This document shows positions 1,468-9,538 of a stretch of DNA of 29,125 nt, piece after piece (the first letter of the stretch is position 1; each line of letters begins with the position of its first letter). The DNA is taken from positions 1-29,125 of IMG/VR virus record IMGVR_UViG_3300023175_000155. One strand, given 5' to 3'. The position numbers were made by a program, and so were the translations under genes. The notes under the pieces were generated by a model, which was given only the letters and a program-made list of their open reading frames with translations, did no database searches and had not been told where the DNA came from. Source of the stretch: a virus.

Positions 1468-3609
1468 ATGGATGAAGATGAAATCATGATTGAAGATGAT
1501 GCTATCGCACTAGAAGATAGTGAGGATACATCTGTTTCAGACGTAGACGTAAGTAATATTATTCCATTTGTACTAGAGCGTTATAAACGATCTGAAGACT
1601 ATCGTTATGATGATGAACAGCGTTGGCTAAAAGCATATCGCAACTATCGTGGTTTGTATGGGCCTGATGTTCAGTTTACTGAATCTGAAAAATCACGAGT
1701 ATTTATTAAAGTAACAAAAACTAAAACGCTGGCAGCATACGGGCAGATTGTTGATGTTCTGTTTGCTAACCAGCGTTTTCCTTTGTCTGTAGAACCAACG
1801 GAGTTGCCTGAAGGTGTGGTTGCCGATGTACATTTTGACCCTAAAGAACCAGAAGAACTGCGTAGTGAAACTGCTCTTTCCAGTCCCTACGGTTTTGCAG
1901 GAGACGGTAAAGATTTACCGCCCGGTGCAACAATACAGACACTACAAGATAAACTTGGGGTGTTGGAAAACAAACTTGAACCAATACAAGATAAATTAAA
2001 AGAAGGTCCGGGTAAAACACCAACGGCTATTGCATTTAGCCCTGCAATGATTGCAGCAAAGAAAATGCAAAAGAAAATACACGACCAGTTAGAAGAGTCA
2101 GGCGCATCTAAACATTTACGTAATGCAGCATTTGAAATGGCTTTATTTGGCACTGGCGTTATGAAAGGGCCGTTTGCTATTGACAAAGAATATCCTAATT
2201 GGAATGACAGTGGAGAATATGACCCATTGTTTAAAACAATTCCACAAGTTAATTACGTATCTGTTTGGAACTTTTATCCAGACCCAGACGCAAATAATAT
2301 GGACGAAGCACAGTTTGTGATTGAACGTCACAAGATGTCACGTACACAACTGCGTAATTTAAAAAAACGTCCTTACTTCCGTGGTGAAGTTATTAATGAA
2401 GTAATTGCTATGGGTGAAAATTATACCAAGCAATACTGGGAAGATGACTTGTCAGACTATGCACCAGAGCATGGTGTGGATCGTTTTGAAGTCCTTGAAT
2501 ATTGGGGCATGGTTGATACAGAATTGCTAGAAGAGCAGGGTATTAATATTCCAAAAGAACTACAAGAGTTTGATGAACTACAAGCCAACGTGTGGATTTG
2601 TAACAACAAATTGCTTCGTATGGTTCTTAATCCATTTAAACCTTCTAAGATTCCATATGCTGCTGCACCGTATGAACTGAACCCATATTCATTTTTTGGT
2701 GTTGGTATTGCAGAAAACATGGACGATACGCAAACACTGATGAATGGGTTTATGCGTATGGCTGTTGACAATGCTGTATTGTCAGGCAATTTAATTGTAG
2801 AAGTAGATGAAACAAACTTGGTGCCGGGTCAGGACTTGTCATTGTATCCGGGCAAGGTATTCCGGCGGCAGGGTGGCGCACCGGGCCAAGCTATCTTTGG
2901 TACAAAGTTTCCTAATGTTTCATCTGAAAATATGATGTTGTTTGATAAAGCACGTGTATTAGCAGATGAAAGCACAGGTTTTCCATCGTTTGCACACGGA
3001 CAGACAGGTGTGCAGGGCGTAGGGCGTACAGCTTCAGGTATCTCAATGTTGATGGGTGCTGCGCAGGGTAGCACAAAAACTGTTATTAAGAATGTGGATG
3101 ATTATTTGTTACGACCATTGGGTGAAGGTTTTTTCCGCTTCAATATGCAGTTTGACTTTGACCCAGAAATTAAAGGCGATTTAGAAGTTAAGGCACGTGG
3201 TACAGAAAGCCTTATGGCTAATGAAGTGCGTAGCCAAAGATTAATGCAGTTCTTGCAGATCGCAAGTAATCCTGCACTCGCACCCTTTGCTAAGTTCCAA
3301 TATGTAATCCGTGAGATTGCAAAGTCTATGGACCTAGACCCCGACAAAGTTACTAACAATATGGATGAAGCTGCACTGCAAGCAGAAATTATGAAGGGCT
3401 TCCAAGCACCAATGCAACAAGAGCAGGGTGGCATGACACCACCAGCAGGTGCTGATGCAATGGACCCAACAGGTGCAGGTGGTGGCAACATAGGTATGGG
3501 ACAGGCTCCTGTACCGGGTGAACAAGGATTTAGTGCGAATGGACAAGGAAATACTCAGCAAGCTGAAGGGGTTGGTCAGCAGCAACCGCCAATGGGACCA
3601 CTTCAGTAA
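1468..3609 (+). CDS. Portal protein
   Basis: The product is 713 residues and forms the dodecameric ring at one capsid vertex through which DNA enters and leaves. The identification rests on its position right after the terminase, its size (close to large P22-type portals rather than the smaller T7 type), and portal-like features. These are an N-terminal helical region with RYDDEQRWLKAYRNYRG, a central clip and stem region, and a C-terminal stretch TASGISMLMGAAQGS followed by a long helical part. The N terminus is strongly acidic. The last 65 or so residues are rich in Gln, Gly, Pro and Met and look disordered. The ATG at 1468 has AAGGA about 8 nt upstream. The 3' end overlaps the next small gene by 71 nt in another frame. 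Confidence 0.88.
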   Translation: MDEDEIMIEDDAIALEDSEDTSVSDVDVSNIIPFVLERYKRSEDYRYDDEQRWLKAYRNYRGLYGPDVQFTESEKSRVFIKVTKTKTLAAYGQIVDVLFANQRFPLSVEPTELPEGVVADVHFDPKEPEELRSETALSSPYGFAGDGKDLPPGATIQTLQDKLGVLENKLEPIQDKLKEGPGKTPTAIAFSPAMIAAKKMQKKIHDQLEESGASKHLRNAAFEMALFGTGVMKGPFAIDKEYPNWNDSGEYDPLFKTIPQVNYVSVWNFYPDPDANNMDEAQFVIERHKMSRTQLRNLKKRPYFRGEVINEVIAMGENYTKQYWEDDLSDYAPEHGVDRFEVLEYWGMVDTELLEEQGINIPKELQEFDELQANVWICNNKLLRMVLNPFKPSKIPYAAAPYELNPYSFFGVGIAENMDDTQTLMNGFMRMAVDNAVLSGNLIVEVDETNLVPGQDLSLYPGKVFRRQGGAPGQAIFGTKFPNVSSENMMLFDKARVLADESTGFPSFAHGQTGVQGVGRTASGISMLMGAAQGSTKTVIKNVDDYLLRPLGEGFFRFNMQFDFDPEIKGDLEVKARGTESLMANEVRSQRLMQFLQIASNPALAPFAKFQYVIREIAKSMDLDPDKVTNNMDEAALQAEIMKGFQAPMQQEQGGMTPPAGADAMDPTGAGGGNIGMGQAPVPGEQGFSANGQGNTQQAEGVGQQQPPMGPLQ

Positions 3610-3757
3610 TTACCTAGATGTGCTTATTGCACAGCAACATAAAGTACTAGAACAATCTAACAATATGGTTGATGTACACAAAGCACAAGGTGCTATTGAA
3701 GCACTGCGTAAGATAAGACGTTTACGTGAGGACATAGCTAAAGCAGATGGCTCTTAA
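3539..3757 (+). CDS. Small helical protein overlapping the portal 3' end
   Basis: The product is 72 residues from ATG-3539, with AAGGA about 10 nt upstream. A GTG at 3518 in the same frame would add seven residues but has no better ribosome site. The first 71 nt lie inside the portal gene in a different frame. The protein looks entirely helical, with a centre such as YLDVLIAQQHKVLEQ and a C-terminal basic helix EALRKIRRLRED. It has no cysteine and no membrane segment. I recognise the general pattern of short helical proteins placed after portals in phages but cannot assign a function. It could be a packaging or head-assembly cofactor. Its stop overlaps the start of the next gene by 11 nt, suggesting translational coupling. 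The overlap with a well-conserved gene and the continuation beyond it argue that it is real. Confidence 0.75.
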   Translation: MDKEILSKLKGLVSSNRQWDHFSNYLDVLIAQQHKVLEQSNNMVDVHKAQGAIEALRKIRRLREDIAKADGS

Positions 3758-5441
3758 CGAACAAATGCAACAGATGATTCAGCAGGATATTCAAGATGCT
3801 GAAACAAGACCAAAAGAAGAAATCCTACAAGAACAAATGAAAGGATTAAAGACTGCTGGTCGTACTGCTAGAGATATTGCTGTTGAATCTATTCCCGGTG
3901 TTAGTGAGGCATTAGCAGAAAAGCGTGTTGATGAAGCACTGCAACGTGGCGATACTACAGGTGCTATGATTGAGGGTGCTGCAGGTTTAATGGGTGCAGT
4001 GCCTATGGTTGGTGATGCAGCAGCCAAAGGGTTACGTGCTGTTACAAAATCATTTCGTAAACAAGATATAAATCAGGCAGAAAAATTAGTAGACAATCCA
4101 GACAAATTAAAAGAATGGCAAGAAGCTAATACACTACCTGAATCTCAAAGACAAAAAAACATACCAGAAGCACAACAAGCTGCAGAAGATTTATTTCAAG
4201 GAAAGATAAAATCAAAAGAAGCACGTAAGCGGATTAAGGAAGTTTTTCCAGAACCAAAATTATACACTGCTGAAAATATGCCAGAAATGCCTACAGTAAC
4301 AGATGTTGTAGGCTCTATGGGAAAAAAAGCAGAAAAGGGTATATTAGGCGTAAAGGGATTTGATTTAGAGCCGGGGCAGCGTGTAGGTGCTAGATTAGAC
4401 ATACCAGCATATAATAATTATGACAAATGGGTTGTGTCAATACACGATGGCAAAATTAGAAATGGTTCTGTTGTTGGTTATGGACAAGCTATTAGGTTAA
4501 AAAATATTGAATTTGGTTCAGACCCAGAAGTTGCATTAGATATTGCAAAAGGAAAAAGGGTAGCCAAAAAATCAGGCGAAGAAAAACCAATGGGCAAAGC
4601 TACAATTGCTCGTGTGTTTGGTGATTATGTACCAGAAGACCCCTATGAGTTGCAAGCGTTTGCAAAAAAAGTTTTAGCAGATAAAGACTCTGGATGGACC
4701 CAAGTTGGTATGAATCCATATAGAGGCAGTTATTTTTATAACAAAGAAACAGGAAAAGTTGTTACACGTGCAGATGAAGTAATTCAAGTTGGCCCATTGG
4801 TACTTGCAAAAAATGTAACAGAGCCAAAGTTATCAGAACTAAAAGAATTGTTTAGTCAAAAAACAGCCAGAACAAAAGATGGTAAACTTAGAATTTTTAA
4901 TCAAGGTGGAGTAGTACCTATGAAACGTATAGCAGAACAAATGGAACTCTTTGAGCCAGTAGAACGTGGCTTTGATGAGGGTGGCCTTATGGAAGAAGGC
5001 GGTATGGTTGATGAGGAATCAGGCAACAAAGTACCACCCGGCTCATTGCGTGAAGAAGTACGTGATGACATTCCTGCTCAGTTGAGTGAAGGCGAGTTTG
5101 TTTTTCCTGCAGATGTAGTGCGTTACATTGGTCTTGAAAAACTAATGATGATGCGCCAAGAAGCAAAGCAAGGTTTAGCACAGATGGAAGCTATGGGCCA
5201 GATGGGTAATAGCGAAGAAGCAACCGTACAAGATGATTTGCCGTTTGATATGTATGACCTTGATGTTGAAGATGATAATAATATGTCACAAGGTGGTATG
5301 CCACAACAACAACAAATAAAAGACCCACGAGATACGGTAAAAGCTGGTTTTGTTACTTACAAAGATCAAACAGCTTATGTTCATGATGTTACAAATATTC
5401 CTGAAGACATAAAAAATGAAGTACGGGTGGATAGAATATGA
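3747..5441 (+). CDS. Polyvalent-type protein with LPD-like domain and SEGEFVFPADVVRY module
   Basis: The product is 564 residues of mosaic make-up. Residues 1-60 are a charged helical region. Residues 75-100 are glycine/alanine-rich and hydrophobic (GAAGLMGAVPMVGDAAAKG). Residues about 206-360 match my memory of a large polyvalent protein-associated (LPD) domain found in phage and conjugative-element proteins: GARLDIPAYNNY, then WTQVGMNPYRGSYFYN, then ADEVIQVGPLVLAKN. Residues about 385-480 hold NQGGVVPM, EGG-type motifs and DIPAQLSEGEFVFPADVVRY, a module common in marine phages and of unknown role. The acidic tail follows. The gene sits between portal and scaffold, overlaps its upstream neighbour by 11 nt and its downstream neighbour by an ATGA. 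It may be a minor virion protein carried in with the DNA, which is inference. LPD family number and activity are not known to me. Confidence 0.7.
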   Translation: MALNEQMQQMIQQDIQDAETRPKEEILQEQMKGLKTAGRTARDIAVESIPGVSEALAEKRVDEALQRGDTTGAMIEGAAGLMGAVPMVGDAAAKGLRAVTKSFRKQDINQAEKLVDNPDKLKEWQEANTLPESQRQKNIPEAQQAAEDLFQGKIKSKEARKRIKEVFPEPKLYTAENMPEMPTVTDVVGSMGKKAEKGILGVKGFDLEPGQRVGARLDIPAYNNYDKWVVSIHDGKIRNGSVVGYGQAIRLKNIEFGSDPEVALDIAKGKRVAKKSGEEKPMGKATIARVFGDYVPEDPYELQAFAKKVLADKDSGWTQVGMNPYRGSYFYNKETGKVVTRADEVIQVGPLVLAKNVTEPKLSELKELFSQKTARTKDGKLRIFNQGGVVPMKRIAEQMELFEPVERGFDEGGLMEEGGMVDEESGNKVPPGSLREEVRDDIPAQLSEGEFVFPADVVRYIGLEKLMMMRQEAKQGLAQMEAMGQMGNSEEATVQDDLPFDMYDLDVEDDNNMSQGGMPQQQQIKDPRDTVKAGFVTYKDQTAYVHDVTNIPEDIKNEVRVDRI

Positions 5442-7273
5442 AAAAGTCAATCAAAGAACAAACTATTAATGCTTTTCAAACTGGTGGAGTAGTTAATCCA
5501 CAAACAGGAACATATCAAGTACCCGGCACAGGTATTACTGGTTTTCAACAAGCACCGGGATTAGGTACAGGTTATACCCCAAATCAACCTATACAACCAT
5601 ATTTTACACCAACTCAATTTACACAGGCTCAATACCAAGACCCTTTGCAAGTAACTAATATTCCTACTTTTGCAGACACTGTTGGATCTGGTTTTGGTCA
5701 ATATGATGAAGAAAGAACATATATTAACGATGCTGGGCAGGTATTAAAAATACCTTTTAAAGATGGTAAACCTTTATTTCCTATTCCTGAAGGATATTCA
5801 GAACAAGGTGCAGCACCAACAGAAGAAACACCTTCTACAACTATACCATTAACAGGGCAAACAACAACTAGAGACACTGGCGGTGGTAAAGAAGATACTG
5901 CTACAGTAAGCCCAACAACAAAAGCAGCTAGAAATGTGTATAAAGGATACAGCAAAGGTTATGCTGGATTATCAACTGCTTTTGGTAGTGGTACTGGTGG
6001 TTTGTCTGAGGCTGCTGCACAAGCTAAAAAAGACTTTGGTATAACGGGACAACAAACAGGTAACTTAGGAAGTTTAGCATCTTTTCTTATGGCATCGGCT
6101 GGCGTTCCTATTGGAATAGCGTCTCTTACAGCAGGTAAAGGTGGGTATCTAAATGACACACCAGTAACTCCGGGTGCTATAGGAACTGTATCTTATCAGG
6201 ATTTAGTAGCCATTGCTAATGGAGAAATACCTGCCCGTGCTGAAGATTTAGTTAATCAACAAACAGCTAAAAATGTTTTAGAGGCTCAATTTAATTATGG
6301 GGTTAACTTGAGTGGCAAAATAGGGTATAATAGTGGAGACATTAATCCAGTTACAGGAACACCTGTAAAAAATGGAATGGCAGTAAATTCTGCGTTTGGT
6401 CCGGGAGTAACTTCTCCATCTTATGCAACAGTAGAGGATATGAAAAACGTAATACAAAAAGGTTTAGCTGCAGGTTGGCGTGGCGGCTATATAGACAAAA
6501 AAGCATATGATGGTCTTTCAGCAAAAGCAAAAGAAAACTATAATAATTTTGACAATACACACCTTCAAAATGATATTATATCAGGTAATTATAAAGGTGA
6601 GTATGAAGATGTAGAAGATTACATTAAAGACTCAAAGGCAGCGCAAGAAGCCTATGAAAAAGGTAATCAGCCTATGCAAGATAACATTACTGGTACACCT
6701 ACCTCTACAGATGTTGATAAAGCCTTTGCTGCTGCTGATGCTGCGTATGAAGCAGGAGTAGATTATGGTGATGAATTTGGTAATATTCCAGAAAGCAGTT
6801 ATGATGGTGGCGGCAGGTCTGAAGATGCTGATGCAGCAGATGCTGGTCGCAGCGATACTAGCGATAGCGGTTCGTCTTGTTTTGCTGCAGGAACTAAGTT
6901 CTTTATGGCAGACGGTTCACTCAAAAATATCGAAGATATTAAAATAGGAGATATTTTACAAAAGGGTGGAAAAGTTAGAACAACTATGGTTGGAGATGGT
7001 CTGTACGAAAACTGGTATATGTATGGCACTACAAAAGTAACAGGTACACATACTGTATATGAAAACGGTACATGGAAACGTGTAGCAGATTCAGATAAAG
7101 CTATACCAACAGAAAAAGATAAATTTATCTACACACTTGTAAATGAAAAACATCGTTTGATTGCTGAAGATGGTGTTATGTATGGAGATTATGATGAGGT
7201 TGACAACCTTGACATAGAAGACGGACTTCTTGAAATGATGAACTTACAAGATTCCGTTGACCAAGCAGCATAA
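5438..7273 (+). CDS. Structural-region protein with C-terminal Hint (intein/hedgehog-type) domain
   Basis: The product is 611 residues. The N-terminal part is Gln/Gly/Pro/Thr-rich and starts with a GGVV motif (residues 16-19). It includes INDAGQVLKIPFKDGKPLFP around residues 90-115, a pattern I associate with marine-phage structural-region proteins. A small hydrophobic patch, FLMASAGVPIGIASLTAG, lies near residue 215. A flexible Asp/Ser/Gly linker precedes Cys481. From there to the end is a Hint fold: CFAAGTKFFMADGS and IEDIKIGDIL (block A), TGTH with His538 (block B), and EKHRLIAEDGV with His572. There is no C-terminal HN followed by an extein, so N-terminal cleavage at Cys481 is more likely than splicing. 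The ATG overlaps the previous stop (ATGA). The Hint call is firm; the role of the rest is unknown. Confidence 0.8.
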   Translation: MKKSIKEQTINAFQTGGVVNPQTGTYQVPGTGITGFQQAPGLGTGYTPNQPIQPYFTPTQFTQAQYQDPLQVTNIPTFADTVGSGFGQYDEERTYINDAGQVLKIPFKDGKPLFPIPEGYSEQGAAPTEETPSTTIPLTGQTTTRDTGGGKEDTATVSPTTKAARNVYKGYSKGYAGLSTAFGSGTGGLSEAAAQAKKDFGITGQQTGNLGSLASFLMASAGVPIGIASLTAGKGGYLNDTPVTPGAIGTVSYQDLVAIANGEIPARAEDLVNQQTAKNVLEAQFNYGVNLSGKIGYNSGDINPVTGTPVKNGMAVNSAFGPGVTSPSYATVEDMKNVIQKGLAAGWRGGYIDKKAYDGLSAKAKENYNNFDNTHLQNDIISGNYKGEYEDVEDYIKDSKAAQEAYEKGNQPMQDNITGTPTSTDVDKAFAAADAAYEAGVDYGDEFGNIPESSYDGGGRSEDADAADAGRSDTSDSGSSCFAAGTKFFMADGSLKNIEDIKIGDILQKGGKVRTTMVGDGLYENWYMYGTTKVTGTHTVYENGTWKRVADSDKAIPTEKDKFIYTLVNEKHRLIAEDGVMYGDYDEVDNLDIEDGLLEMMNLQDSVDQAA

Positions 7274-8461: not shown

Positions 8462-9538
8462 ATGGCATTTACTTCCGCAGCGGGGTATGGCAATCTTCCT
8501 AACGGTAATTTTTCACCCGTAATTTACAGCAAACAGGTGCAACTTGCTTTCCGCAAGTCTGCTGTTGCTGAAGCAATCACCAATAACGACTACTTTGGTG
8601 AGATTGCGCAAATGGGTGATTCCGTTCGGATCATTAAAGAACCCGAAATCACAGTTAAGGCTTACGAGCGTGGTACAACCATCACTCCGCAAGACCTTGA
8701 CGATGAAGACTTCAACCTGACAATTGACAAAGCTAACTACTTTGCATTTAAGGTTGACGACATTGAAGAGGCACACAGCCACGTAAACTTCCAGTCACTG
8801 GCAAGTGATCGTGCTGCGTACCGTTTGGCTGACCAATTTGACCAAGACGTTCTTGGTTACATGTCAGGATACAAACAGTCTGCACTGCACAGCAATGCTG
8901 ACACAGTAAACACAACCATTAATGGTTCTGTTGCTGTATCAACTGCTGGTACAGATGAACTGCTTGCATCAATGAAGTTGGACGCATCTGACTTCTCTGA
9001 CGGTGCAGGTACAGTAGGTAACGCAGGTGAAGCCATTGCTATCCAGCCTCGTACTGGTGGCGCAACTGACGCAACTCCTGCTGCTGGTGATACACACCCA
9101 TTGACTTTGATTGCACGTATGGCTCGTCTTCTTGACCAGCAAAACGTGGACTCACAAGGTCGCTGGATTGTGCTTGACCCAGTGTTCATGGAAGTATTGA
9201 AAGACGAAGATTCTCGTCTGTTCAATGCTGATTTTGGTGGTTCTGGTCTGCAAAATGGTCAGATTGCTACCCAAATCCACGGCTTCCAAGTTTATCAGTC
9301 TAACAACTTGCCTTCAGTTGGTACTGGTCCATCATTCGCTGGTGCGAACAGTTCAACCAACTACGGTGTGATTGTTGCTGGTCACTCTTCTGCTGTTGCT
9401 ACTGCAGAACAGATCAACAAGACTGAAACTTACCGTGATCCTGATAGCTTTGCCGACATTGTTCGGGGAATGCATTTGTATGGTCGCAAGATTCTCCGTC
9501 CAGAGGCTCTTGTCAACGCCATTTACCACTTAGCGTAA
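8462..9538 (+). CDS. Major capsid protein (HK97-like fold expected)
   Basis: The product is 358 residues and forms the icosahedral shell. Supporting features are its place after the scaffold, its own promoter and strong ribosome site, its typical length, and a composition rich in Asp, Ala and Thr with no cysteine. Recognisable stretches include the N-terminal NGNFSPVIYSKQVQLAFRKS, the MGDSVRIIKEPEITVKAYER region that resembles the E-loop and P-domain start of phage coats, and the C-terminal TYRDPDSFADIVRGMHLYGR near the end. Similar coat proteins are common in marine podoviruses. There is no N-terminal protease-like extension and no visible prohead protease gene nearby, so maturation by cleavage is unlikely, consistent with a separate scaffold. 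The fold is inferred from family resemblance. Confidence 0.9.
   Translation: MAFTSAAGYGNLPNGNFSPVIYSKQVQLAFRKSAVAEAITNNDYFGEIAQMGDSVRIIKEPEITVKAYERGTTITPQDLDDEDFNLTIDKANYFAFKVDDIEEAHSHVNFQSLASDRAAYRLADQFDQDVLGYMSGYKQSALHSNADTVNTTINGSVAVSTAGTDELLASMKLDASDFSDGAGTVGNAGEAIAIQPRTGGATDATPAAGDTHPLTLIARMARLLDQQNVDSQGRWIVLDPVFMEVLKDEDSRLFNADFGGSGLQNGQIATQIHGFQVYQSNNLPSVGTGPSFAGANSSTNYGVIVAGHSSAVATAEQINKTETYRDPDSFADIVRGMHLYGRKILRPEALVNAIYHLA

Follow-up and report, generated by a model that had tools for sequence, protein, structure and literature searches.

Phage inteins have been described before, as have Hint domains and variants of them that cleave at the N-terminus. Among the described relatives, Vint domains (PF14623; Tetrahymena 8r2c) resemble the domain treated here in having the Hint fold, motifs A and B, a weak motif F and no C-terminal motif. 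However, the Vint proteins known so far are VWA-Vwaint-Vint fusions of eukaryotes (PMC2362128), whereas the present domain sits on a phage head-module carrier lacking VWA and Vwaint, and its copy in the window (the whole 29,125-nucleotide stretch of viral DNA that was analysed) scores under the Pfam cut-off. B-type BIL domains lack the C-terminal intein motif, may cleave at their N-terminus and occur in hypervariable regions of non-conserved proteins (PMC7765530). Compared by motifs alone, the pattern in the window fits this type. Unlike B-type BIL domains, the family is always C-terminal on phage virion-module proteins and is exchanged with non-Hint tails; the conserved C-terminal His-Asn of A-type BIL domains was not found in the window domain.

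The Hedgehog Hog domain is likewise a C-terminal Hint domain that releases the N-terminal part through a Cys1 thioester, and our structural model matches it (Z 12.3 to 1at0), but no sterol-recognition region stands behind the Hint domain of the window protein. Phage inteins (TerL, UvsX, DnaB) share the fold and blocks A and B and provided the best annotated matches in phage records. In contrast to them, the window Hint domain has neither a C-terminal His-Asn nor a C-extein and lies outside a conserved active site. Polyvalent phage proteins are multidomain and packaged, and a peptidase within the protein has been proposed to cut them (PMC5512222). The cutting domain differs in being a peptidase, and the passages found there describe no Hint tails.

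Genomic context

We assign the window, as a fragment, to an uncultured HMO-2011-type marine podovirus because its portal and scaffold-like proteins are highly identical (86% and 78%) to those of Puniceispirillum phage HMO-2011. The TerL-portal-scaffold-coat gene order of HMO-2011-type phages was found in the window and matches that of locus L027. The genes around the locus are the following.

1468..3609, + strand: portal protein gene (SU10_portal; 86% to HMO-2011)
3747..5441, + strand: upstream ORF of 564 aa, weakly matching L5 gp82 and containing a LSEGEFVFPADVVRY motif
5438..7273, + strand: the whole Hint-tailed ORF, 611 aa
7326..8225, + strand: scaffold-like gene, named by position (phrog_13678, no curated function; 78% to HMO-2011)
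8462..9538, + strand: major capsid protein gene

The Hint gene thus lies between the portal gene and the scaffold-like gene, neighbours that support the virion-module setting claimed in an earlier note on this DNA. It overlaps the upstream ORF by ATGA (5438-5441), and in relatives such as L012 and L120 the two form a single fused gene. Gene order and the cell-wall hydrolase domains of relatives point to a virion-borne carrier product. In L122 (2559-5102) a class 1 Hint tail is combined with an N-terminal phage lysozyme domain (PF18013, E 1.6e-16), the CRP-2 copy of the carrier gene has a cell wall hydrolase domain (E 1.3e-11), and the phiM6 copy has one at E 1.3e-5, under its cut-off. No proteomics of the carrier gene was found in the open-licence literature, and the HMO-2011-type genome paper mentions neither Hint nor proteomics.

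Identity of the Hint domain

The ORF consists of a short conserved N-terminal region, a variable middle, an Asp/Ser/Gly linker and a C-terminal Hint domain, with the parts and residues listed below.

5438..5797, + strand: N-terminal ~120 residues, common to other alleles, motif YINDAGQ.L.IPF..G.P..PIPEGY
5798..6864, + strand: variable carrier region and Gly/Ser/Asp-rich linker
6866..6877, + strand: SGSS, residues -4 to -1 ahead of the predicted scissile bond Ser480/Cys481
6878..7270, + strand: Hint domain, class 1, residues 481-611 (131 residues)
6878..6880, + strand: Cys481, position 1 nucleophile, invariant in 17/17 class 1 members
7040..7051, + strand: block B TGTH, Thr535-Gly-Thr-His538 (Thr B:7, His B:10)
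7133..7135, + strand: Thr566, invariant in class 1, where standard inteins have Asp F:4
7151..7153, + strand: His572, the block F His, within KHR, invariant in class 1
7181..7186, + strand: Tyr582-Gly583, aligned with the intein terminal His-Asn; C-terminal cleavage motif absent

The 611-residue ORF, Cys481, block A, TGTH and KHR are all located where the earlier note had read them, and its suggestion of an exposed Asp/Ser/Gly linker ahead of Cys481 is supported. The block-A motif CFAAGTKFFMADGS begins at residue 481 of the ORF, and Cys481 is the only cysteine in the protein. Its lack of a terminal HN-extein, also claimed there, is borne out by Tyr582-Gly583 at the His-Asn place; only 28 residues follow Gly583 before the protein ends at 611. 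The blastn match to L003 (70%) ends at 5797, and blastp gives 58% over residues 1-120; across 5798..6864 most other Hint alleles are no longer similar in DNA. SGSS is kept together with the Hint domain in close relatives.

The C-terminal Hint domain proposed in that note was borne out by Pfam profiles, an AlphaFold2 model and PDB structural matches. The profile search it had suggested returned Hom_end_hint (E 1.2e-6, 29.1 bits, cut-off 32.1) and Vint (PF14623; E 0.003, 17.9 bits, gathering cut-off 27), both window scores being under their cut-offs. The Vint cut-off was passed by L014 (31.4 bits) and L122 (27.1 bits), and that of Hom_end_hint by L014. Pfam profiles detected no VWA or Vwaint domain in the window protein. 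The best PDB sequence matches of the window Hint domain were to PI-SceI, with the alignment starting at its Cys1. Modelling with AlphaFold2 from an alignment of 33 sequences gave a pLDDT of 88.2 and a pTM of 0.81; with 10 class 1 sequences alone the model was poor (pLDDT 44.8). Since the larger alignment combines the two phage Hint classes with six standard Hints, the fold and profile results are not fully independent.

Foldseek placed BIL domains as the top PDB hits of the model, followed by inteins, Vint and Hedgehog. Against solved BIL, intein, Hedgehog and Vint domains Z was 11-14 with Cys481 at position 1. VIA-align gave Z 14.0 for a Tetrahymena BIL, 12.3 for the Hedgehog autoprocessing domain 1at0, where the aligned range begins at Cys258 opposite Cys481, and 11.9 for the Tetrahymena Vint over 116 residues. 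A chance motif is ruled out by fold, profile and conservation, and a canonical intein by the missing HN and C-extein. Profiles and model together confirm residues 481-611 as a real Hint domain, with a predicted Hint fold and position-1 nucleophile.

Searches with tblastn of the whole 611-residue protein against 50,697 phage records gave no match, and the Hint part alone matched only inteins and a few hypothetical proteins. The class 2 Hint, searched in phage records, had no match either. A scan of genome contigs for Hint returned 6 weak matches and no class 1 member; the three that were examined were standard Hints with His-Asn.

Active site and selection

Cys1, Thr B:7, His B:10 and the block F His were invariant in all 17 class 1 sequences. 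Across 33 sequences, both classes included, Cys1 and His B:10 were invariant and Thr B:7 was present in at least 90%. Activation of the N-terminal bond in inteins is the role of Cys1, Thr B:7 and His B:10 (PMC4031507). The position of the terminal His-Asn is occupied by Tyr-Gly in class 1 and by His-Gly in class 2. That of Asp F:4 holds Thr in class 1 and a residue other than Asp in class 2. Scanning with two Cys1-free patterns retrieved 20 loci, every one of which matched from Cys1 onward.

Pairwise dN/dS lay at 0.03-0.26 in most of the class 1 and class 2 comparisons, and the most distant pair that could be scored reached 0.345. Judged by these ratios (0.03-0.35), the Hint domain is maintained under purifying selection, and a decayed domain is ruled out.

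On paper, this set of residues would permit N-terminal thioester chemistry and make Asn cyclisation impossible. Splicing and C-terminal cleavage are not expected, because Tyr-Gly stands where His-Asn was. The likeliest activity predicted for the domain is cleavage ahead of Cys481, an inference we consider sound because Cys1, Thr B:7 and His B:10 are under purifying selection while the residues of the C-terminal step are lost. Cys481 would attack the carbonyl of Ser480 in an N-S acyl shift aided by Thr535 and His538, and the thioester would be resolved by water or a small nucleophile. Against cleavage, Asp F:4, the first-step helper in most inteins, is missing in both classes, and selection could equally preserve an inactive folded Hint domain for binding.

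Exchange of tails at the carrier C-terminus

In the Hint relatives, portal and scaffold-to-capsid DNA is 79-86% identical and the carrier between them differs. We surveyed 80 loci, taken as the best matches found through the scaffold-like gene and so leaning to close relatives. Non-Hint tail types were sorted by simple text rules, and two loci were corrected by hand (L089, assigned to the basic tail, and L055, left out of the tail classes). Among these best 80, about 33 carriers had a basic tail of the ...GLASKK type, 18 a Cys-led tail and about 15 none; 7 were contig edges or duplicates. Hint tails were found in six, 4 of class 2 and 2 of class 1. Since ~90% of the alleles at the site are without a Hint tail, the tail is not essential.

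Paired alleles locate the exchange. The carrier DNA of L014 (class 1 Hint) is 93% identical to that of L039 (no tail); the match stops 7 bases short of the Cys codon and resumes directly past the stop. Carrier DNA is ~90% identical between L004 (class 1) and L036 (class 2), and 92% between L045 (no tail) and L048 (basic tail). The carrier C-terminus is a swap site, at which Hint class 1, Hint class 2, a Cys-led tail, a basic tail or nothing is found. A Hint domain hidden behind the stop of the tail-less alleles L039, L042 and L045 was rejected, because the 21-103 bases from stop to scaffold start are too short for a 393-base domain.

The commonest ending (~33/80 loci; L043, L058, L063, L077 and others) is the basic tail, closing with ...KKMKRGGLASKK or ...KQMKQSGLASKK; it could be a scaffold- or head-targeting peptide. 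Cys-led tails fill the Hint slot in the cultured phages CRP-345 (L029), ctYwJ313 (L032), HMO-2011 (L027), CRP-1 (L028) and HTVC033P (L030); all cultured relatives that were examined had either such a tail or no tail. The ctYwJ313 tail matches NCBIfam CFI_box_CTERM (E 4e-14). We dropped a general assignment of the Cys-led tails to the CFI-box family, since ctYwJ313 alone matches, CRP-345 being marginal (0.02) and the others giving no match. No mention of "CFI-box" was found in the open-licence literature.

These alternatives bear on the reading that the Hint tail is a folded, non-cleaving structural or binding tail of a virion protein, one among several. In its favour, no autocatalytic fold is known for the basic tails (...KKMKRGGLASKK) and various Cys-led tails of this site, and Asp F:4 is absent. 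However, Cys1 and His B:10 are strictly kept in both classes despite their differing surroundings, and the Cys1-free search patterns found no member without Cys1. We consider this reading rather unlikely, though worth keeping in mind.

In the window (5438-6877) and across the 80-locus survey the carrier parts held no Cys, the survey covering ~51,000 residues (the L055 protein, with 5 Cys, set aside), compared with 16 Cys in the 7,485 residues of the window's other proteins; a probability for this absence would be meaningless because the sequences are related. The absence may be partly due to low-complexity composition. The ORF of L055 (42-812; 256 residues), upstream of the scaffold-like gene, was fatty acid desaturase-like as judged by eye.

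Hint tails on the VrlC/DUF4815 protein

A second carrier is a DUF4815 protein adjoining baseplate wedge genes, which ends in a class 1 Hint in L117 and a class 2 Hint in L144, L151, L155 and L189. In the cultured Kyanoviridae C48C1, Mosig and HTVC008M the DUF4815 protein is an uninterrupted chain, 1661-2045 residues long, and goes by the name VrlC in two of the three. At four loci it is encoded by two genes, the first with a Hint tail.

L144, 2907-8494: VrlC/DUF4815 as two genes, first with Hint tail
L151, 686-6339: the same arrangement
L189, 1049-6792: the same arrangement
L117, 2235-7828: the same arrangement

The Hint-tailed half of L144, L151 and L189 corresponds to C48C1 residues 4-1148, and the alignment of the next gene begins at 1155; for L117 the two halves correspond to 1-943 and 1000-1660. 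The two Hint classes thus occupy two different breaks of the VrlC chain, at 1148/1155 and 943/1000. The class 2 tail lies between residues 1148 and 1155 of uncut VrlC, and therefore a free C-terminus is tolerated there.

This arrangement raises the possibility that a specific amine, alcohol or partner protein receives the thioester, leaving the carrier C-terminus ligated or modified in a Hedgehog-like manner. In L144, L151 and L189 (class 2) and in L117 (class 1), the gene downstream of the tail encodes the remaining half of a protein that cultured phages make as one chain. The class 2 tail falls in a 6-residue gap of VrlC, and the terminal Asn, which would compete through C-terminal release, has been lost. 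However, the 28 residues past Gly583 hold no sterol-recognition-like region, the downstream VrlC halves lack an N-terminal Cys, and no partner half of this kind accompanies the window gene. We regard such transfer as improbable. The narrower proposal that Hint tails transfer the carrier C-terminus, in thioester form, to the N-terminal end of a separately encoded partner, rejoining split chains (VrlC) or linking the carrier to another virion protein, is in our judgement very improbable.

L036 (a podovirus) and L151 (T4-like) share 80% DNA identity across 381 bp, covering the class 2 Hint alone. The confinement of similarity to the Hint fits a module that moved between phage groups. A neutral or selfish remnant of an intein minus its C-terminal half, spread only through recombination homology of its DNA, would also share domain DNA between unrelated podovirus and T4-like carriers, and intein DNA as recombination homology has been proposed for phiCbK TerL (PMC3556154). 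Nevertheless, dN/dS is low, the domain contains no homing endonuclease, and two separate Hint classes are retained at identical slots, and we find a remnant very improbable.

A different phage protein (MKGTLFSADFV...) in L017 (4639-6933) and L020 (1888-3798) carries a standard Hint with terminal HNK; L017 apparently has two Hints in tandem.

Predicted role and implications

The explanation that we favour, with moderate confidence, is a mobile C-terminal cassette that removes itself from phage virion-module proteins and uses only the N-terminal half of intein chemistry. Cleavage would free a 480-residue carrier with an Asp/Ser/Gly linker end, resembling the tail-less alleles, which end in a similar linker as shedding of the tail would give. 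The module would probably work during assembly of a modular virion protein, the product of the gene between portal and scaffold. It might, for instance, assist folding or targeting for a time, or be a spacer that is later shed.

Phage Hint domains have so far mostly been reported as inteins within enzymes. Searches of open-licence texts turned up no description of two Hint classes that lack the C-terminal motif and serve as interchangeable tails on two unrelated virion-module proteins of phages. Here, two Hint classes without C-terminal chemistry are tails in marine HMO-2011-type podoviruses and T4-like myoviruses. If cleavage is true, they would constitute a phage-borne self-removing tag system, for which the paired alleles with and without the tail are ready-made controls. 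The same slot holds the Cys-led tails, one of them CFI-box-CTERM, and the function of the Hint tail could offer a first handle on those.
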